Position numbers and translations under genes: made by a program
NCBI RefSeq assembly: GCF_002952055.1
Contig: NZ_CP021255.1
Span: 2,488,001-2,552,000 of the forward strand
Direction of reading: 5' to 3'
DNA length: 64,000 nucleotides
DNA from: Desulfobulbus oralis
GTDB lineage: Bacteria > Desulfobacterota > Desulfobulbia > Desulfobulbales > Desulfobulbaceae
The notes under the pieces: model-generated
What the model saw: only the letters and a program-made list of their open reading frames with translations
Database searches by the model: none
What the model was told of the DNA's origin: nothing
Shown: piece after piece, positions 45,149-56,519 of the stretch
How positions within the stretch are numbered: position 1 is the stretch's first letter
How the letters are laid out: each line of letters begins with the position of its first letter

Positions 45149-45550
45149 TCAACTGCCTCCTGCCTGCCCCCGCTTTTCGGCAGCCTTGATCTCGGCCCAC
45201 TGCCGCTGCAGTTCCTCTTCGGTTCTGGCGGTGGCATGGCCAAAGACATGCGGGTGTCTCCTGACCATCTTGGCGTGCAGCTCCGCGCAGACCTCCTGCC
45301 AGGTGAAGGCATTCTGCTGTTCATAGAGGCGCACGATAAAGGCCAGCGTGAAGAGCAAATCACCGCTTTCTTCCCGAACCGCGGCCGGGTCGCCCGATTC
45401 AATGGCAGCGACCAGTTCCTGGCATTCATCCAGCAGGTATCTGCTCATGCTTCGGGCCGTCTGCCGCTGGTCCCAGGGGCAGCCGCCCTCGCCCCGGAGC
45501 CGGTCGATCAGCGCCATCAGGGCGCTGAGGCTTTCCGTATCCCCTTGCAT
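45149..45550 (-). CDS. mazG: MazG-type nucleotide pyrophosphohydrolase, short form
   Basis: A 133-residue single-domain MazG enzyme that hydrolyses nucleoside triphosphates to monophosphates. It has RLRGEGGCPWDQRQT near residue 18, the E-x-x-E pair in LLDECQELVAAIESGD and the E-x-x-D pair in VREESGDLLFTL. E. coli MazG is about twice as long with two domains. The ATG at 45550 is preferred; two in-frame GTG codons at 45559 and 45556 are alternatives, since the gene almost overlaps the preceding stop. Confidence 0.88.
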   Translation of the reverse strand: MQGDTESLSALMALIDRLRGEGGCPWDQRQTARSMSRYLLDECQELVAAIESGDPAAVREESGDLLFTLAFIVRLYEQQNAFTWQEVCAELHAKMVRRHPHVFGHATARTEEELQRQWAEIKAAEKRGQAGGS

Positions 45551-45552
45551 GC

Positions 45553-46794
45553 TCACCACCCCACCCAGGAAGCCGGCGCGCTCCTGTAGGGCACCAGCTC
45601 GAAGCTGCGTTTGTACGGGTCTATGCGAATGTGGTAGTAGCGATCCTGGGGAATGTAGATATAGGGAATTTCCTCTTCCTGCCGTGACAGGAAACGGGAG
45701 AGGATCATGCGGTTCACGGCCCTGTGGCCCACGATCATGATGTTTTCGTCATAGTTGCCCAGATAAAAAACCTTTTTCAGGCCCCGCACGACCCGCTCGG
45801 CCATGGTGGCATAGCCCTCGCCGCCGGGATACACGTAGCGGTACTTGTCGGCGGCACGTCCCCTCGCCACTTCCGGCATTTTCTGGCGCGCCTCCTCATA
45901 GGTCAGCCCTTCGCAGACCCCGGCATGGATCTCGTTGAGCTCGGGCAGGGCGATGATGGAACAGGGCTCCTGCCGGGCAGCGATGGGCCGGGCGGTTTGC
46001 AGGGTACGGCGGTGGTTGCTGGTAAAGATGATGGGAATCCGCACGGTGGCAAAGTGCTCGGCCAGGGCTTCGGCCTGTTCTTCGCCCCTGGGTGTCAGGC
46101 TGGAGTCGCCGCCGATGCGGTTTTCGGTATTGTACACGGTCTCGCCATGGCGCACCAGAAAGAGGTTGCGCACCACCCGGGTGGTGATGATGTCGCGGAT
46201 ACGGTCGTAATAGGGCAAAACCTCGCTGATCTGCTCCTGCAGGATGCACGAATCAAAGGAATCGACCAGAATACGGTTGGGTTCGTCGGACAGCGGTTCG
46301 TAGATCTGCTCGTAGTAGGCAATACGCTGGCCAAAGTTTTCGAGCGCCTTCTCCCGGGGCAGATCCTGAAACTCGGGCAGCGCGGCCTTGCGTTCCAGAT
46401 TGGCGGCCAGGGCCTCTTCGTCGGCGTTCAGGCATTCGACAAAGCACAGGGGAACAGGGGCAAAGGCGGCCATGATGCCGGCCCGGCGCTCCCTGGTGAT
46501 ATTCGTGGCATCGAGGATGGCCACCTGGCCCTCGCCGGCCAGAAAGGCCTGGGCCGCCTCGATGTTTTGGCGTGCGATCTCTTCCCGCATCTGCAGGCCG
46601 AAACTGTTGGCCGGCGAGAAAAAATCGGCCGTGCTGCAGCTCGCCCCGGATGCCATCTGACGGCGCAGCTTGCCGTTGTTGAACACCTGCACCCTGACCC
46701 CATCCTGCTCCAGGGTGCGGCCCAGTTTACGGGCCATGGTGGATTTTCCGCGGGCCGGCAGACCCACCATGGCGATCACCAGTTTTGCCTTCAT
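45553..46794 (-). CDS. Bifunctional 6-phosphofructo-2-kinase/fructose-2,6-bisphosphatase-like
   Basis: A 413-residue two-domain protein. The N-terminal kinase has Walker A GLPARGKST, FNNGKLRRQ, DFFSPAN and ILDATNITRERR, the pattern of eukaryotic PFK-2. The C-terminal histidine phosphatase has LVRHGETVYNTENRIGGDSS, the second RxxxTxxTA (SNHRRTLQTA), ELNEIHAGVCEGLTYEE and a late GHRAVNR His. In animals it makes and removes fructose 2,6-bisphosphate; a regulatory role in glycolysis or gluconeogenesis here is inferred. Its ATG overlaps the aroB stop. Confidence 0.88.
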   Translation of the reverse strand: MKAKLVIAMVGLPARGKSTMARKLGRTLEQDGVRVQVFNNGKLRRQMASGASCSTADFFSPANSFGLQMREEIARQNIEAAQAFLAGEGQVAILDATNITRERRAGIMAAFAPVPLCFVECLNADEEALAANLERKAALPEFQDLPREKALENFGQRIAYYEQIYEPLSDEPNRILVDSFDSCILQEQISEVLPYYDRIRDIITTRVVRNLFLVRHGETVYNTENRIGGDSSLTPRGEEQAEALAEHFATVRIPIIFTSNHRRTLQTARPIAARQEPCSIIALPELNEIHAGVCEGLTYEEARQKMPEVARGRAADKYRYVYPGGEGYATMAERVVRGLKKVFYLGNYDENIMIVGHRAVNRMILSRFLSRQEEEIPYIYIPQDRYYHIRIDPYKRSFELVPYRSAPASWVGW

Positions 46795-48024: not shown

Positions 48025-48064
48025 CAAAAAAAAGGGATTCCGCCAGATGGCGGAATCCCTTTTG
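48025..48064 (-). terminator. Strong terminator after sat
   Basis: AAAAGGGATTCCGCC, loop AGAT, GGCGGAATCCCTTTT, a 15-bp stem with eight T on the minus-strand side. Confidence 0.92.
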
Positions 48065-48082: not shown

Positions 48083-49363
48083 TTACTGCATCTTGTCGCC
48101 GGAAGCGGCATGCTGCATCTTGATCTCGACCTTCTCGGTCAGGCCTTCATAGTACTTGCGCAGAATGACCAGAACTTCGTCGCGGCCAAAGTGATCCGGC
48201 ACTTCCAGACCTTCGGAGAGCATCTTGCGCAGCTTGGTGCCCGACAGGATGACCCGATCTTCCTTGGTATGCGGGCAGGTGCGCATGGAGGCCATGCCGT
48301 CGCATTTCTTGCAGTAGAAGGTCCAGTCGATCTTCAGCGGCTCGCAGAGCAGATCCTGACCCGGCTTGCCGGTTTTCGGAATGCGATCGAAGATTTCCTG
48401 CGCCTCGAACAGGCCGTAGAAGTCGCCGACTCCGGCATGGTCACGACCGATGATCATCTTGTTGACGCCGTAGTTCTGACGGAAGGTGGCGTGGAGCAGG
48501 GCCTCGCGCGGGCCGGCATAGCGCATGTCCAGAGGATAGCCGGCGCTGTACACGTTTTCCTTGACAAAATAGTGATCGATCAGGGTTTCAATGGCCTGGA
48601 TGCGCACTTTGGCCGGGATGTCGCCTTTTTTCAGGTTGCCGATCAGGGAGTGAATCAGCACGCCGTCGCAGACCTCCACCGCAATCTTGGCCAGGAACTC
48701 GTGGGAACGGTGCATCGGGTTGCGGAGCTGCAGGGCGGCGACATTGGCCCAGCCGCGCTCGTCGAACATCTTGCGGGTCTCGGCAGGCCGCAGATACACG
48801 CCCGGATACTCTTTCGGGTACTCGCCTTCGGACAAAACCTTGACCGGGCCGGCCAGATTGACGTCCTTCTGGGCCATGACCATCTTGACGCCAGGATGAT
48901 CTTCCAGGGCAACCTTCCAGAACTTGTCGTCAGCGGAATCTTCACCATGACCCTTGAAGACCTGCTCGCATTCCCATTTCTTGTCGGCCTCGGTCATTTC
49001 ATACTTCTCTTCGACCTTCATGGTGGCGTAGGTCTCGCCTTCGCGAACCAGGGCGATCTCGTCGCCGACCTTGATGGCATCGGCGTCGGCTTTGGAGACA
49101 TCCAGTGTAATGGGCACCGGCCAGAAGGTTCCGTCGTCCATCTGGAATTTTTCGCAAACGCCCTTCCAGTCGGCCTTGCCCATGAAGCCGGTCAGCGGGG
49201 AAAAACCGCCGATGCCCATCATGATCAGGTCGCCCTTGGCGCGCGGGCTGATCTCCACCTGCTTCAGACCCTTGGCCTTCTTCAGTTCGGCCTCGCGGGC
49301 GCTGCCCTCAAGCAATGCGCAAACCAGACCCTTTCCCCCGTGTGGTGCAACCAACTTGCTCAT
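48083..49363 (-). CDS. sat: Sulfate adenylyltransferase (ATP sulfurylase)
   Basis: A 426-residue enzyme that activates sulfate to APS, the first step of dissimilatory sulfate reduction. The active-site H-x-x-H block is [12 protein letters not shown], and the second block is [15 protein letters not shown] zinc site is likely in [16 protein letters not shown]. The length and the zinc cysteines fit the homo-oligomeric prokaryotic form of sulfate reducers. It has its own promoter and terminator, so it is monocistronic; aprAB and dsrAB are not in the window. Confidence 0.96.
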
Positions 49364-49602: not shown

Positions 49603-52600
49603 CTAGTCCATATTGTCTTCCTCCCAGGAAATACGCCCGGAGCGTACTCCCTCCGTAGTCTTTGCCTTGACGGCCTCGATGCTGCCGGTTGAAAGTTGGG
49701 TGTTGACTGTAACCGTGTTGTTACCGCCATCCTTGCCGGCAGAGATCGATATGCCTCCTGCGCTACCCGAGCCCAGCAGTACAAAGGTTTTCGCCAAATA
49801 ACGCACCACCCCGTGTACATTAACAGTCTTGGCACCCAATGTGAGTGTTTTCGGGTTGGCGGTGCCGGTACGGTAATCCAGACCGTACAGTGCGCTCTGG
49901 CCCAGACCTTTGCAGGGGTCACTACTTGGCTGAAAGACTGTGGAGAAGAGCACGCCGCCGGCCAGCGCCGAGCGGGTCAGATTTCTGGTACTTGGCGCCC
50001 CGGCTGCATGGCTGATCAGGCCTGGAATTTTGCGTTTCCATCCCGCCGCCTTGTTCACCGCTTCACCCAGCAGCTCGTTAAAGGTAGTCAGTGTGCCGGA
50101 TGAACCCACGACTGTCGAAGTCAGTGCACCGTCGCTGTAGACATCGACCCCGGAAACATCCAGCAGATCGGCATCCAGTACCGGCAGCGCAGCGCCAGTG
50201 CTAGCCGCGTTGGCTTTGTCTTCCGCCGTGGCCAGCGGGTCCTTGATGCCATAGAGATAATGCTCGTCTGCCGTCAGCTTGTCCAGCATATTCCAGTAAC
50301 GGCCTGTGCCGAAGTAGATCCACTTGTGGCGCTTCTTGTCGATGCCGGCCAAAGGCTGAGCAGATACGGGCAGGTTCGTTTTCAGGAAAGTGTTCAGCGT
50401 CCAGCCCGACATGTCGGCCCTGTTGTTGAAGTCCAGCTTCAGCAGTGCGCCGCTGTCCGCGCTGTTGTTGGTTGCATTCTTTTTGCTGGCGTCAGAGGCC
50501 ACCACACCTATATAGGCTGCATCGCTCTTGAAATCGAGCTGCCAGTCCACGACCGAGGGATTGCCGACAAAGCTGTTGGCAATCCGGGTATCGCAAGCCA
50601 GTACCTTGAAGTCGGCTCCGTTCCTGATGGGCTGCACCGAACAGCCGTTGGGCACTGTCGAAGGCGTCACTCCGGTCTGCGTGCGGAGCTGACTCAAATC
50701 AAACAGATACACATGGGCATTCTGGCTGCTGGTATAGTCAATTCCGGTCGGCCCACTGCCCAGAAGCAGATACCAATCGTTGCAGGCCGAGCCGTTGCAG
50801 GTGGTGGCGCTGCCCCGATCCTGGAAAGCTACCGCTGCCGGATACATCGTGGTAAAGGTGGCGTCGGGCAGAGGGATCTCGCCCAGCAGGACCGGTGGCT
50901 TTTCCGGATTGGTCACGTCAAAGACTACATAGGCCGAATGGGTATAGTACGAGGGCGAAAAGCCGGTCAGCTCCATGCTGCCTCCGCCCCGCCCCATGCC
51001 CACGACCAGCAGCGTGCCCCAGCCATTAGGGTGATCCGTATCTTCGGAGAAAATCCGGGCGTCAAAGATACGCGGCTGGCCATCCACATACGAAACATGG
51101 GTAGTGTTGGCACCGTACTCAGGGGCTTTCAACCACTGCAGGTGCGGCAGCAGATTGCCCGGCGCATAGGCCCAGAGCTCGGCACCCAGCGGGTGCTCGA
51201 CCGCTGCCGTGCCGTCAGGCGTAGTGCCGCTGACCGAATACTTCATCAACGTCTGTTCCTTATCAGTGCCTGCCTCAAGGGTCTCGGTCGTATAGAAACC
51301 ACCGTTGAAGGCATGCAGCAGGCCGTCGTTCGCCCCTGCATAGACCACCGTACGCCGGTCCAGGTAACGGGTGCGGAAGGCGCGGTATGTCCTGTCACCG
51401 TAAATGATGTCAATATTTTCCCGCGGCGTACCGACAACCGCCGGTGAGGAGTGCATAACGTCGCCCAATCTCAGGATGTGGCTGGGGCTGGTACCGTCCG
51501 CCGCAGCTGGTATGGTTCTGGTTCTGGTGCCACTGATCTCCTCGCCGCGCACATAGTTGATAACGTCTTTGGCTTCCTGCAGATCAGCCACATCGAAGAA
51601 CTTGAGCGCGTCTGAGGCGCTAGTCAGCAGTCCGGTTTCAAAAGGCAGGTACTCGCCGCTGTCCACCTTGCCGTTCCTGTTGCTGTCCACCCAGGTCATG
51701 ATGTAACGGCCCGTTTTGGCGGTGGTATTCCATGTGCGGTTGGTGGTCACGGTCACGCCATCCAGGTAGAGCTGTTTCTCGGCGTTCCAGATGTAGCTGA
51801 CATTCTCAGAATTGATGGGTATGGATTCATAGCTGGCAGCCTGCACCACATCGCCTGCCGCCAACCAGGCCAGTTTCGGCGTGACCGTAAACGTCTTGCT
51901 GCCCGAATTGGCCAGCGTCAGTGGCGTGTTGCTGGTCCCCGTCCTTCCTTGGCTCAGGTTGGTCACACTCCAGGAATCAATGTTTGTACCTGCCGTCCCC
52001 TGCATATTGTAGGAAGAAAAGCGCGCCATCGTGCATCCGGTCAGTTCTGAACCAGGTTCCGAGCTCACAACAATGTCGCTTTGGGATGTAAAGTTGTCCA
52101 AGGTGAGATCAATGCCTGAGATAGCGCCGCTGCCACTGCCAGCCAGGCATTCCACCTGCCAGGATTTGAACACACTGCCATTTGGGCCCACCCGCCGCTT
52201 GGTTTCCAAGGTGATGGTGGTCGGAGCAATGGTGCCAGCAGCAGTGATGTTACCATCTGCATCGTAGGTGGGTGCCACCTTCCAGTTGACCAGCCAGTCG
52301 CCCGCAGGTTCTAGGGTAATCGTCGCGCTCGCGCCACTGGTAAAAGCCAGGCTTGAGCTGGTGGTGCCCCGGCCCGCACCGGCTGCCGTGGTCACATACC
52401 ACTCCGAGGCTGTGACCCCGGCCGGGCCTTTGCTCACGTCGTCGATGGTGATATTGGCCACGCCGGTTTCTGGGTTGTAATCCGTCACCGTGGCGCTCAA
52501 GCTGTAGGGTTCCAGGGTCAGTGTCCCTTCGTTGGCGTCATAGGTGATGTTACCTTCCATGGAGTTCGGCACCATCAGCACCTGACCGGTGCTGGCGTCA

Positions 52601-55600
52601 AAGGACTCGACCACGCCCTGCATGGAGTAGGACGTGAAGGCATCAGGAGTGGTACTGGCCAGAATTCTGCTTGTCAGTTTTTCGCCGTTATAGGTGGTCT
52701 CCACTATCTGGTCCACACAGTAGTCATCCAAGCGGCCATTGGGCACGCAGATGTCCGCCAGGTTTGTCGGGGTTTTCAGGCACAGCCCTGTGCTAGGATC
52801 AACGCCCAGTTGTCCTGCGATTGGTGTGCAGTCCTGCCGGTTGTGGCCGGCGCCATCCGACCACAGGGCCTGCACGGTGCCAAACCAACGCAGCTCCTGA
52901 TCATTGCCCACACTTTTTCGGGGCTGATAGTGCGACTGGTAAATCGCGCCCTCACCGCTACTGCTGCTGGGCGCCACCGCCGCAGAGGTTCCTGAGGCGA
53001 CCTGATCCAGCAAGGCGTCAAAAACTCGGGTCAACGAGTTTTCCAGCTCCTGCGGGTTGGTCGCGTAGAAATAGTTGTCCGGAATGCCATCGCTGCCAGT
53101 GCCACCGGTGGCGTTGTTCTGTGTATCCCACTTGCTGCTGTTGTCCGGCACCCGGCTGTCCTGCGGGTTGTTCTTATCATACTTGAATCCGCCGTACTTG
53201 GCCGCATACCATAAAGGTGACTCCAACTTTTTGGTCGCAGAGGTCCTCACTCTGTAGGTCTTGCGGGATGGGCCCTGCACAGAGCAGGTCGCAAAGGCTC
53301 CGTTTTTGGGGGTGCATTTACAACCGCCAATACCGTTTCCGGCACTGCAGTTTGGGTACCCGGCATCAACCCTTTCCTCGCGTACATACTGATTCATACC
53401 GCTGTGGGCATGGAAACCGTCCTCCGTGGTGCCACTGATGACATAGCCCAGGGCCATCTGGGGGCTGCCGGTCTGGCCATGCACCTGGGTGGTCATGGCA
53501 ATGGTGCCGGCATCGGCATCGTACTCGTAGTTCATGGTGCCCCACATGTCCATGTCGTAGTCACCGCCCTGCTCGCTATCCTCCCAGTTGACATAGGTCT
53601 TACCCATTACCTTGTTGCCCACGATCTCCTCGGACACAATCTTGAAGTCCACAATAGCGCAGTTGCCCGTTCTCTCGCCGTAGATCATGCGGCAGGCTGG
53701 CATAATGGTAATGCCCGATTTACCGCTGGCACTACCGTGCAGCGGCTGGGGTACCTCCACAATGGGCAGGCCCGAGGCCAGGGCCACGCCGTAGGTGTTG
53801 ACGTTCTGCTCATCCGGGATGTTTTGATTGACATCTGCCACGTGGGCGTAGTAGGCGAGACCTGCCAGGCGGTAGGAACCAAAGAGCCGCGGGGCCTCCG
53901 GGCAGAGACCACCGGCGCTGCCCAGTGAGGTCAGGGTTTTGGAGGTACAGAGCTGGTTGTTGTCGCCGACATCCGGGTTGCTGGGGTTGTAGGGCGTTTC
54001 CACGCTCCGCTGGCCAAAAAAGTAGTCAATATTGTACAGACCCTCGTGCGTGCCGACTTCATCGCTCATGGCGACCGTGTTTTTGTTGAAGGCCGACCCC
54101 CAAAGATCTGTGGGTTTGAAGGCAGTGCTACCCTCGGTATCCAGGTTGTCAGCGTCGTAGGAAAGCACGCTGGAGTTGAAGGCCAGAACATGCAACTGAG
54201 CGCAGTAGTCCTCCTGCGGCAGCCAGTTGCGGTCATAGCTTTCTGGCGCGGGCAAGCCTGGGATAACGCCTGCGTCCTTTGTCGTCGTATATTCGTTGAT
54301 TACGCCTTTGTCACCCATGTAGCTGATGGCCTGGGCAAAAATTTCCGCAAAGGGGTTGCCCCAGTTGCGGCAGCGGCCATCCGCAGCAATCTCCCCCTTG
54401 GCGGTCAGCAAATAGGTACAGTTGTCCCCACTGCCGTAGGAGTTGCCGTAGTTGTAGAGAAAGCCCACTGGACGGTAAAGACTCCAGGCATTGATGATGC
54501 CCTCTCCGGTGCTCGGATTGCCCGGCCGGGTGCTGGCAAAGCTGGCCACCTTGGGAAAGGAGCCATCCGTATTGACATTCACTTCACTCTTCAGGCTCTT
54601 GATGTTGCGCACCAGCGTCCCGCCCTTGGTGTGCTTGTGATAGGAACCAGCGATCATGCCAAAGAAGATGCTGTCACTATCGCCGTAGCGCTGCAGGAGG
54701 CCAACGGGCTTGTAGTTGTCGTCACTGGTACCGTTCAGGCCGTCCAGACCGGGGTAGAGCTTGCACTTCTCCTTGGTACTGCCGGAGATCGCCGCCACCT
54801 CGTCACTGTCGATCAGATTGGGCACACAGGCCTGCACCCGCACGGTGTAATCGCCCTGCCCCAGTCTTTCCTCCCACTTCGGGGCATCGCGGTAGGCGTA
54901 AATGCCCGATCTTGACTCATCGTTATAATTGGACGTATTCTTTTGATTGTGGTAAGGCGAGCCATCGTACCAAACGAGCTGTACCAGCGAGCCGGATGCC
55001 CAGAGGGAGTAATTGCCGACCACAGTCTTCAGAACCGGTGGATCCTCCACCTTTTCCGAATATCCGCTATAGCTGGGCGGCACATCTGTGGTATTGCCGA
55101 AGGTGACGCCAAGCCGCTTTGACTTCTTCGTATTGCCGCAGGCGGACAAGTGTTCGTCATCACAGTAGTAGTACAGACCGCCAGCGCTCACAGGATGCGT
55201 GCTGCTTGCCAGCTTGAAGGGCGTCAACTTGGGCAGGTCGGCTCCGGAGTAGTGCTTGGCCCAGCTGTGCGCGTCATAGGGTAGATAGGTCCGCTCCAGC
55301 ACGGTTTCGGTGGGGCTGTCGACGCGGCGGTGACCGCCAAAGAGGATCTTGCGCACAACATCGATCCTCGCCATGGTGGCCCAGTTCAAAAAGTTACCAC
55401 TCCAGTAGTTGTCCGCAGCGCCGGTACAGTACTTGTCGGTGGTAAAGCTTTTCGGCACAAAGCGACCCTTGCCTGTATCATAGTCGTAGCACTTGTAGCT
55501 GTCAAAATAACCGTAGTAGTTAAGAGCGTTCTTGTAGGTGGTGTCGTTGCTGCCATCCTTGTCCAGATCGTTGAAGTCGTTGTAGGCCTTGAAAAAGAGC

Positions 55601-55854
55601 TGGTGGTCGTTGGATGTCGCGATCATCAACCTTGGCACTGCACCTTGCTGCACCAGATTGACCGGCATGGTGTTGAACTCAGTCATGCTGTGTTTGGCAC
55701 TGGCCTGTACTGCAGTGGATGACAGGACACAGAGCGTCAGAGCACCGAGCAGTCCGAGCACTGCTTTTGCCAAGCCAGGACGCAAGGGGCTGTCGCACGA
55801 GGCAGCGCCCGAAGCTCCAGTCAGAATATTTGATTGTTTTCCGAAGAGTTGCAT
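49603..55854 (-). CDS. pilY1: Very large PilY1-type pilus tip/assembly protein
   Basis: A 2083-residue exported protein starting MQLFGKQSN (GAGG five bases upstream), with a long signal region to about residue 52. A calcium-loop-like DLDKDGSND lies near residue 96 and NYWSGNFLNWATMARIDVVR follows. The C-terminal third has an EF-hand-like DSNRNGKVDSGE near residue 1385. The PilY1 beta-propeller follows, from LGDVMHSSPAVVG near 1460 through VVYAGANDGLLHAF. Between about 1050 and 1350 there are Ig-like beta repeats absent from shorter PilY1. It is about twice the P. aeruginosa length and closes the minor-pilin operon. Confidence 0.9.
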   Translation of the reverse strand: MQLFGKQSNILTGASGAASCDSPLRPGLAKAVLGLLGALTLCVLSSTAVQASAKHSMTEFNTMPVNLVQQGAVPRLMIATSNDHQLFFKAYNDFNDLDKDGSNDTTYKNALNYYGYFDSYKCYDYDTGKGRFVPKSFTTDKYCTGAADNYWSGNFLNWATMARIDVVRKILFGGHRRVDSPTETVLERTYLPYDAHSWAKHYSGADLPKLTPFKLASSTHPVSAGGLYYYCDDEHLSACGNTKKSKRLGVTFGNTTDVPPSYSGYSEKVEDPPVLKTVVGNYSLWASGSLVQLVWYDGSPYHNQKNTSNYNDESRSGIYAYRDAPKWEERLGQGDYTVRVQACVPNLIDSDEVAAISGSTKEKCKLYPGLDGLNGTSDDNYKPVGLLQRYGDSDSIFFGMIAGSYHKHTKGGTLVRNIKSLKSEVNVNTDGSFPKVASFASTRPGNPSTGEGIINAWSLYRPVGFLYNYGNSYGSGDNCTYLLTAKGEIAADGRCRNWGNPFAEIFAQAISYMGDKGVINEYTTTKDAGVIPGLPAPESYDRNWLPQEDYCAQLHVLAFNSSVLSYDADNLDTEGSTAFKPTDLWGSAFNKNTVAMSDEVGTHEGLYNIDYFFGQRSVETPYNPSNPDVGDNNQLCTSKTLTSLGSAGGLCPEAPRLFGSYRLAGLAYYAHVADVNQNIPDEQNVNTYGVALASGLPIVEVPQPLHGSASGKSGITIMPACRMIYGERTGNCAIVDFKIVSEEIVGNKVMGKTYVNWEDSEQGGDYDMDMWGTMNYEYDADAGTIAMTTQVHGQTGSPQMALGYVISGTTEDGFHAHSGMNQYVREERVDAGYPNCSAGNGIGGCKCTPKNGAFATCSVQGPSRKTYRVRTSATKKLESPLWYAAKYGGFKYDKNNPQDSRVPDNSSKWDTQNNATGGTGSDGIPDNYFYATNPQELENSLTRVFDALLDQVASGTSAAVAPSSSSGEGAIYQSHYQPRKSVGNDQELRWFGTVQALWSDGAGHNRQDCTPIAGQLGVDPSTGLCLKTPTNLADICVPNGRLDDYCVDQIVETTYNGEKLTSRILASTTPDAFTSYSMQGVVESFDASTGQVLMVPNSMEGNITYDANEGTLTLEPYSLSATVTDYNPETGVANITIDDVSKGPAGVTASEWYVTTAAGAGRGTTSSSLAFTSGASATITLEPAGDWLVNWKVAPTYDADGNITAAGTIAPTTITLETKRRVGPNGSVFKSWQVECLAGSGSGAISGIDLTLDNFTSQSDIVVSSEPGSELTGCTMARFSSYNMQGTAGTNIDSWSVTNLSQGRTGTSNTPLTLANSGSKTFTVTPKLAWLAAGDVVQAASYESIPINSENVSYIWNAEKQLYLDGVTVTTNRTWNTTAKTGRYIMTWVDSNRNGKVDSGEYLPFETGLLTSASDALKFFDVADLQEAKDVINYVRGEEISGTRTRTIPAAADGTSPSHILRLGDVMHSSPAVVGTPRENIDIIYGDRTYRAFRTRYLDRRTVVYAGANDGLLHAFNGGFYTTETLEAGTDKEQTLMKYSVSGTTPDGTAAVEHPLGAELWAYAPGNLLPHLQWLKAPEYGANTTHVSYVDGQPRIFDARIFSEDTDHPNGWGTLLVVGMGRGGGSMELTGFSPSYYTHSAYVVFDVTNPEKPPVLLGEIPLPDATFTTMYPAAVAFQDRGSATTCNGSACNDWYLLLGSGPTGIDYTSSQNAHVYLFDLSQLRTQTGVTPSTVPNGCSVQPIRNGADFKVLACDTRIANSFVGNPSVVDWQLDFKSDAAYIGVVASDASKKNATNNSADSGALLKLDFNNRADMSGWTLNTFLKTNLPVSAQPLAGIDKKRHKWIYFGTGRYWNMLDKLTADEHYLYGIKDPLATAEDKANAASTGAALPVLDADLLDVSGVDVYSDGALTSTVVGSSGTLTTFNELLGEAVNKAAGWKRKIPGLISHAAGAPSTRNLTRSALAGGVLFSTVFQPSSDPCKGLGQSALYGLDYRTGTANPKTLTLGAKTVNVHGVVRYLAKTFVLLGSGSAGGISISAGKDGGNNTVTVNTQLSTGSIEAVKAKTTEGVRSGRISWEEDNMD

Positions 55855-55868
55855 GATTTCCTCACTGG

Positions 55869-56519
55869 TTATTGTGCATATGGGGCCAACTTCGTACAAT
55901 CAGGTTTGCCTATGGTCTGAAGCACGGAGCTGTTCAAGCGCCAGTGCGTGGTGATCTCCGACCTGCTGCCCTGCAGCCCTCTGTGCTGTGACTTGATGGT
56001 GTAAATGCGGTGTTGGGCTCCGGCACTCCCTACCCCAAAGCCTTCATAGCCGGAAAGCTGCAACATACCGGTTCCTGCACTGGTCTTGGTTGTATAGTAG
56101 GCCAGAATGTTCGTGTGCGGCCTGCCCAAGTCGCCCAAATCGCCCTCGGGAAAATACTGGATGGCATAGTTTGTATCCGAAACGGCTTTTTCTTTTTCGG
56201 TCTTGAGTTCGTCTTCGTGCACATCGAAAAAGCTCTTGCTGGAAAACCTGAGCAGTTGCCCCACCCTGTTGCTGCTGAATCCGCCAGAGGTGGTGGTGCA
56301 GACGGCGTTGGCATAGAGGAGACGCTCGGCAAGCTGGGTGCCGCTGTCCGCTTCGTAAAAAGTTTTTTTGTGCGTGCGGTCATTGCTGGCGATGTGCACA
56401 TCGAAAATACTGGTTTGCGAGGCCCAGACGCCCAGAATGGTCAAGAGAATCAGCATCACCAGAGCCAAGACCAGCACAAAACCCTGTTCTGATCGATGGA
56501 TTGCAGAAAATCCTGTCAT
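55869..56519 (-). CDS. pilX: Minor pilin assembly protein, PilX-like
   Basis: A 216-residue protein with a prepilin-type N-terminus: SEQG before FVLVLALVMLILLTILGVWA. Asp and Thr follow in the PilX manner. The large globular part has single Cys residues at AVCTTTS and PDCTKL that may pair. The ATG at 56519 is preferred over the GTG at 56528. It sits between pilV and pilY1, the usual order. Confidence 0.82.
   Translation of the reverse strand: MTGFSAIHRSEQGFVLVLALVMLILLTILGVWASQTSIFDVHIASNDRTHKKTFYEADSGTQLAERLLYANAVCTTTSGGFSSNRVGQLLRFSSKSFFDVHEDELKTEKEKAVSDTNYAIQYFPEGDLGDLGRPHTNILAYYTTKTSAGTGMLQLSGYEGFGVGSAGAQHRIYTIKSQHRGLQGSRSEITTHWRLNSSVLQTIGKPDCTKLAPYAQ

Follow-up and report, generated by a model that had tools for sequence, protein, structure and literature searches.

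A probable bacterial 6-phosphofructo-2-kinase/fructose-2,6-bisphosphatase in Desulfobulbus oralis and related Desulfobacterota

Does a sulfate-reducing bacterium carry the enzyme that makes and breaks fructose 2,6-bisphosphate (Fru-2,6-P2), and if so, which step of its carbon metabolism would that signal control? The question is raised by a gene in a 64,000-nucleotide stretch of Desulfobulbus oralis DNA (NZ_CP021255.1, positions 2,488,001 to 2,552,000, forward strand), to which we refer as the window. Animals, plants, and fungi form and degrade Fru-2,6-P2 with a bifunctional enzyme. In eukaryotes, Fru-2,6-P2 activates PFK and inhibits fructose-1,6-bisphosphatase (FBPase), and in plants it activates PFP (PMC12965863). 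Here, we describe the gene and the residues of its two domains, and then consider its spread, its neighbors, and its possible metabolic partners. The features of the region are as follows, with the base coordinates of the two domains computed from residue numbers.

45149..45559, minus strand: short MazG-domain nucleotide pyrophosphohydrolase-like gene, 136 aa (PF03819, 2.7e-20)
45553..46794, minus strand: PFK-2/FBPase-2 homolog, 413 aa, kinase and phosphatase on a single chain
45598..46164, minus strand: fructose-2,6-bisphosphatase-like histidine phosphatase domain (PF00300), residues 211-399
46267..46788, minus strand: 6-phosphofructo-2-kinase domain (PF01591), residues 3-176, with Walker A at G11-S18 and the fructose 6-phosphate (Fru-6-P) pocket residues
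46791..48002, minus strand: aroB, 3-dehydroquinate synthase (TIGR01357, 362.8 bits, cut-off 305)
48030..48063, minus strand: hairpin resembling a terminator (15-pair stem followed by a run of T) in the gap separating sat from aroB
48083-49363: sat, upstream of aroB

An earlier note on this DNA had placed a PFK-2/FBPase-2 gene of a sulfate reducer at 45553-46794. An ORF with exactly these coordinates lies on the minus strand, where it starts with an ATG at 46794 preceded by an AGGAGG motif; the plus-strand reading of the same interval contains an internal stop. Both the presence of sat in the window and the genus fit a sulfate-reducing host. Residues 3-176 match Pfam 6PF2K at 1.9e-42 (145.5 bits versus a cut-off of 27), and residues 211-399 match His_Phos_1 at 6.5e-43 (147.1 bits versus 21.7). 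By phmmer against PDB sequences, the closest solved relatives are the PFKFB enzymes 3bif, 1bif, and 1k6m (E values of 5e-63 to 8e-63, residues 6-384), with 38% identity to 3bif and 1k6m across about 366 aligned positions. The gene and its domain matches exceed chance by far, and the gene is under purifying selection, with dN/dS of 0.08-0.18 against six relatives.

To assess the kinase site, we compared the window protein with PFKFB3 and with 67 distinct relatives, drawn from 102 fetched loci with a match. These loci sample the positive genomes rather than cover all of them (30 loci for 43 positives in the host's order and 30 for 57 positives in the phylum), and they are supplemented with 20 stretches and 22 named records. 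Inhibitor contacts in the PFKFB3 pocket are R74, R75, R98, D124, T126, R132, R189, Y193, and T48, with V70 and F87 as pocket walls and Tyr424 nearby (PMC3177832); a docking study lists R74, R132, K168, R189, Y193, and Tyr424 (PMC10491774). In our alignment, PFKFB3 R74, R75, R98, D124, and T126 correspond to R44, R45, R70, D95, and T97 of the window protein, and R132, K168, R189, and Y193 correspond to R103, K136, R157, and Y161. All nine polar Fru-6-P pocket residues tested within the aligned region are thus identical between the two proteins; PFKFB3 Tyr424 falls outside this region. Eight of the nine are invariant in all 67 relatives; the ninth, T97, is Thr in 38, Ser in 25, Gly in 2, and Ala in 2.

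The remaining pocket positions differ in a consistent way. PFKFB3 Thr48 is Ser in the window protein, as in 66 of 67 relatives (Thr in one), and the wall residue V70, which is Leu in the human liver enzyme, is Asn in 66 of 67 (N40 in the window protein), the one relative with Val being locus L055. The F87 position is Phe in 42 relatives and Tyr in 25. K17, which we take to be the Walker A lysine, is present in 67/67 relatives, as are D95 and R103, presumably the Asp and Arg of the kinase site; the Walker A Thr of PFKFB is replaced by Ser in the window protein. The earlier note had asked whether Fru-6-P-binding residues are missing. None of the nine is missing in the window protein, so the claim is not refuted on this point.

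The phosphatase half is similarly well conserved. R215, H216, N222, R263, and E288 are present in 67/67 relatives and H357 in 66/67, the remaining row being a gap; we take these six to be the catalytic residues. Four further positions, which we assume from the rat enzyme literature to form the sugar-phosphate side that binds the 6-phosphate of Fru-2,6-P2, are also kept: R313 and K317 in 67/67, R362 in 66/67 (again with a gap in the other row), and Y299 in 65/67. The position of Q391 in the rat testis enzyme, for which a numbering offset of 4 relative to PFKFB3 was deduced from the alignment, is Arg in 56/67. Altogether, the earlier note was right that both domains keep their catalytic motifs, K17, D95, and R103 in the kinase and the catalytic set in the phosphatase.

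The host genome encodes two further histidine phosphatases (E up to 0.001), and both keep the catalytic set but differ at I227, G228, Y299, and K317. R362 is common to both and R313 occurs in one, so the sugar-side residues discriminate only partly between these proteins. By reading of the neighboring proteins, one of the two is CobC-like and lies beside cobalamin-like genes, while the other lies behind a nucleotidyltransferase-like gene. The C-terminal fold and catalytic residues of the window protein resemble those of the alpha-ribazole phosphatase CobC and other branch-1 histidine phosphatases, which, unlike the window protein, have no kinase domain. The window protein scores 98.8 bits against TIGR03162 (CobC), below the cut-off of 162.9, and falls under every histidine-phosphatase cut-off among the 25 of 35 NCBIfam matches listed. 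With these scores, and with the sugar-side residues kept, we rejected CobC, phosphoglycerate mutase, and other plain phosphatases as identities for the protein.

Predicted structures are consistent with a PFKFB-like enzyme in a possibly different arrangement. AlphaFold2 models reach a mean pLDDT of 87.8 and pTM of 0.82 for the window protein, and 90.0 and 0.86 for L102, a relative that is 52% identical; the two models are not independent, since all 15 alignment rows of the L102 model are among the 17 of the window model. Nearly the full length of the window model can be matched to PFKFB structures (Z 29-31). Across both predicted monomers, comparison with PFKFB chains gives Z of 29-32 and a whole-chain rmsd of 15-17 A, which suggests that the relative placement of the two domains may differ from that in PFKFB. 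With eukaryotic PFKFB1-4 (3bif, 1bif, 1k6m, and 2axn), the window protein shares domain order, Walker A, the charged Fru-6-P pocket, the phosphohistidine site, and the phosphatase sugar-side residues. Unlike PFKFB, it starts 10 residues before Walker A without a long N-terminal extension, and its C-terminal tail is short. The bacterial enzyme further differs in its Asn for V70, its Ser for the Walker A Thr, its predicted domain placement, and a rebuilt segment behind the kinase core, which is conserved among the bacterial relatives and unlike its eukaryotic counterpart.

How widespread is this gene? In the host's order, a relative (E up to 1e-30) occurs in 43 of 242 genomes and 12 of 68 genera. 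Across the phylum, PF01591 (1e-10) is found in 57 of 395 sampled genomes, about one in seven, and in 30 of 246 genera, versus none of 14 control genomes; the three phylum searches, of 395 genomes each, were treated as one set. Carriers cluster in ten families of the phylum sample, and the named relatives belong to Desulfobulbus, Desulfogranum, and uncultured Desulfobulbaceae and Desulfobacterales.

The earlier note had also called for a tree of bacterial homologs. Our tree, whose 69 rows are the 67 relatives and two vertebrate sequences, covers the phylum, and its branching agrees well with family labels, needing 12 label changes where the minimum is 11. This fits mostly vertical inheritance with losses. 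The sole relative of 67 that groups with vertebrate PFKFB is L055, from one genome (G586) of family f72. Its placement involves long branches and is flagged as unsure by the tree tool, and it shares 39% identity with the vertebrate sequences and 38% with the window protein; L055 is possibly a separate acquisition.

We also considered recent mobile origin and rejected it as a simple account of the gene. No plasmid match to the kinase-phosphatase was found at 1e-15. Six phage records matched at 1e-10; the matches lie in the phosphatase half, span 36-39% of the query, and have 31-33% identity. A peptide-pattern search of viral contigs matched 10 stretches, none of which encodes a relative, though distant relatives can escape such a pattern. 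The GC3 of the gene (0.79) is like that of its neighbors (0.76-0.79).

The earlier note had described the gene as part of an operon with aroB and mazG, and the overlaps on which this rests are there: the stop of aroB and the start of the kinase gene share the four bases ATGA, and the MazG-domain gene begins within the 3' end of the kinase-phosphatase gene. The aroB profile matches from residue 39, and the gene therefore probably begins downstream of 48002. The MazG-domain product reaches the cut-off of none of the NCBIfam models listed for it. Since the terminator-like hairpin lies between sat and aroB, sat is probably in a separate transcript; three terminator-like sites were found in the region versus 4.1 expected in shuffles, with the stem at 48030..48063 the longest.

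This setting is not supported as a clue to function, for it occurs in close relatives alone. Of 29 order-level loci (about 4 kb each), five, the window's own among them, have mazG next to the gene, and 10 include at least part of aroB. Among 22 named-record loci (4.0-13.2 kb, partly from the same genomes), aroB occurs in 14 and mazG in four. In 20 wider-phylum loci of 9-12 kb, mostly from other families, tblastn at 1e-12 found aroB, mazG, and sat in none. Gene calling by ORF length took antisense ORFs in GC-rich loci, and neighbor tables were therefore restricted to cases in which the proteins made sense on reading. Because the neighbors are not conserved, we rejected the aroB-mazG operon as a functional guide.

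Two other observations concern the surroundings of the gene. A promoter-like site on the minus strand (window 45129-45100) matches at 11/12 positions, with 0.7 such sites expected in shuffles, and it lies just upstream of an rpsF-like gene, for which it might provide a separate transcript start. At 49603-55899 on the minus strand, there is a 2098-aa ORF that, by our reading, resembles a PilY1-type pilus protein.

A better lead than the aroB-mazG setting is class I FBPase (PF00316), which is present in all 57 carriers versus 171 of 338 non-carriers (Fisher 9e-16) and, by genus, in 30/30 carrier versus 103/216 non-carrier genera (Fisher 2e-9). Among the matches listed, it is also found in 16 of 17 non-carriers of carrier families (G297 of f34, G306 of f44, five genomes of f53, three of f54, and six of f72), the one without it being G332 of f34. 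Since the carriers cluster in ten families, and listed non-carrier kin have the FBPase as well, the co-occurrence indicates that a potential target is in place and falls short of proof.

In a subset of carriers, the FBPase gene is also a neighbor. Of 14 carriers of families f47 and f63, 10 have the FBPase stretch 2.7-4.8 kb upstream of the PFK-2/FBPase-2 gene and on its strand; in the other four, it is about 35 kb away on the same contig (one), about 1 Mb away (one), or on another contig (two). At four of the ten near loci (L086, L090, L101, and L102), the FBPase and the PFK-2/FBPase-2 gene are separated by opposite-strand genes, including Bax-inhibitor-like and radical SAM-like genes (named by reading), and are not one operon. 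For 37 further carriers, the FBPase is on a different contig in 33 and about 1 Mb or more apart in four. These gene-distance counts leave out six carriers of f44.

PFK (PF00365) is found in 56 of 57 carriers (G482 has none) versus 293 of 338 non-carriers. GlpX occurs in 2/30 carrier genera versus 11/50 non-carrier genera (Fisher 0.12), where the 50 non-carrier genera were hand-chosen with one genome each. The D. oralis genome has a single PF00316 FBPase together with two PFKs, and a search of it for GlpX gave no match. The two PFK ORFs, L105 and L106, are single-length (369 and 414 aa). Both have PKTIDND, together with GGDGS in L105 and GGGGT in L106; we take GGDGS/GGGGT to be the phosphate-donor motif of PFK, and L105 and L106 to be an unusual mix.

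Taken together, we think it likely that the window gene encodes a bacterial PFK-2/FBPase-2 that sets the level of Fru-2,6-P2 and thereby regulates the Fru-6-P/Fru-1,6-P2 step. In the proposed scheme, the N-terminal kinase would phosphorylate fructose 6-phosphate at C2 in an ATP-dependent reaction, and the C-terminal domain would strip the C2 phosphate via a phosphohistidine on H216, so that the balance of kinase and phosphatase would determine the Fru-2,6-P2 level. Fru-2,6-P2 would most likely inhibit class I FBPase and could possibly act through the PFKs. Because sulfate reducers live largely on small organic acids and obtain their sugars through gluconeogenesis, a brake on FBPase would fit, although here we infer both the target and the direction of its regulation. 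In yeast and mammals, the PFK effector site for Fru-2,6-P2 derives from a former active site, following gene duplication (PMC12203962). Given such an origin and the single-length PFK ORFs in this genome, FBPase would be a likelier target than PFK.

The residues that depart from PFKFB allow another interpretation, namely that this is a kinase-phosphatase of the same family acting on a different sugar phosphate, for example another ketose phosphate, to yield a different bisphosphate signal or intermediate. The V70-to-Asn change in 66/67 relatives puts a polar group on the pocket wall, the segment behind the kinase core is rebuilt, and the position of rat testis Q391 is Arg in 56/67. However, the eight kinase-pocket residues that are Arg, Lys, Asp, or Tyr are invariant, the phosphatase sugar-side residues are kept in 65 to 67 of 67 relatives, and every carrier has a class I FBPase, so we regard a change of substrate as unlikely. 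Alternatively, just one of the two activities may operate in the cell, a situation reported for certain yeast and filamentous fungal proteins that have both domains (PMC9721465). Here, however, the catalytic residues of both halves are kept among the sampled relatives, which would be surprising if one half were idle throughout; we see only a slim chance of a one-way enzyme.

The overlapping genes in the window might also point to a housekeeping enzyme tied to aroB and mazG, serving sugar-phosphate clean-up or shikimate supply with no signaling. This is highly improbable: mazG is beside the gene in just five of 29 order-level loci, and in 20 loci mostly from other families the protein itself is kept while tblastn at 1e-12 matches neither aroB nor mazG nor sat. 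We thus return to a PFK-2/FBPase-2 that may act on class I FBPase as our preferred reading.

A bacterial Fru-2,6-P2 system would not be new as such. The earlier note had regarded this signal as mainly eukaryotic; according to PMC9721465, which cites Rider 2004, Fru-2,6-P2 occurs in almost all eukaryotes and not in bacteria, with the exception of Desulfovibrio desulfuricans. This sole named exception is, like the host of the window, a sulfate reducer, which means that the present gene would not be the first bacterial case among such organisms; D. oralis belongs to another genus, and the comparison is with the citing statement. A 2026 preprint describes PFK regulation by Fru-2,6-P2 as apparently specific to eukaryotes (PMC12873801). 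Among the literature matches listed, the titles and abstract beginnings mention no assay of a bacterial PFK-2/FBPase-2 and no Fru-2,6-P2 measurement in Desulfobacterota. As far as our searches show, what is new here is the phylum-wide spread, the integrity of the pocket, its Asn signature, and the FBPase neighborhood.

We offer one broader proposal tentatively, as a possibility that we consider rather doubtful: that the Desulfobacterota own a mostly vertically inherited Fru-2,6-P2 switch on class I FBPase, built on a rearranged enzyme with an Asn in its pocket, and that the eukaryotic system is possibly of bacterial derivation. With an intact-looking enzyme in 57 of 395 Desulfobacterota genomes, a switch known as "eukaryotic" becomes testable in bacteria, and suitable cultured carriers include Desulfobulbus elongatus DSM 2908 (L046) and Desulfobulbus rhabdoformis DSM 8777 (L048). 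If the PFK-2/FBPase-2 reading is true, it would add a regulatory layer to the carbon flow of sulfate reducers, and it would bear on the origin of the eukaryotic Fru-2,6-P2 switch.
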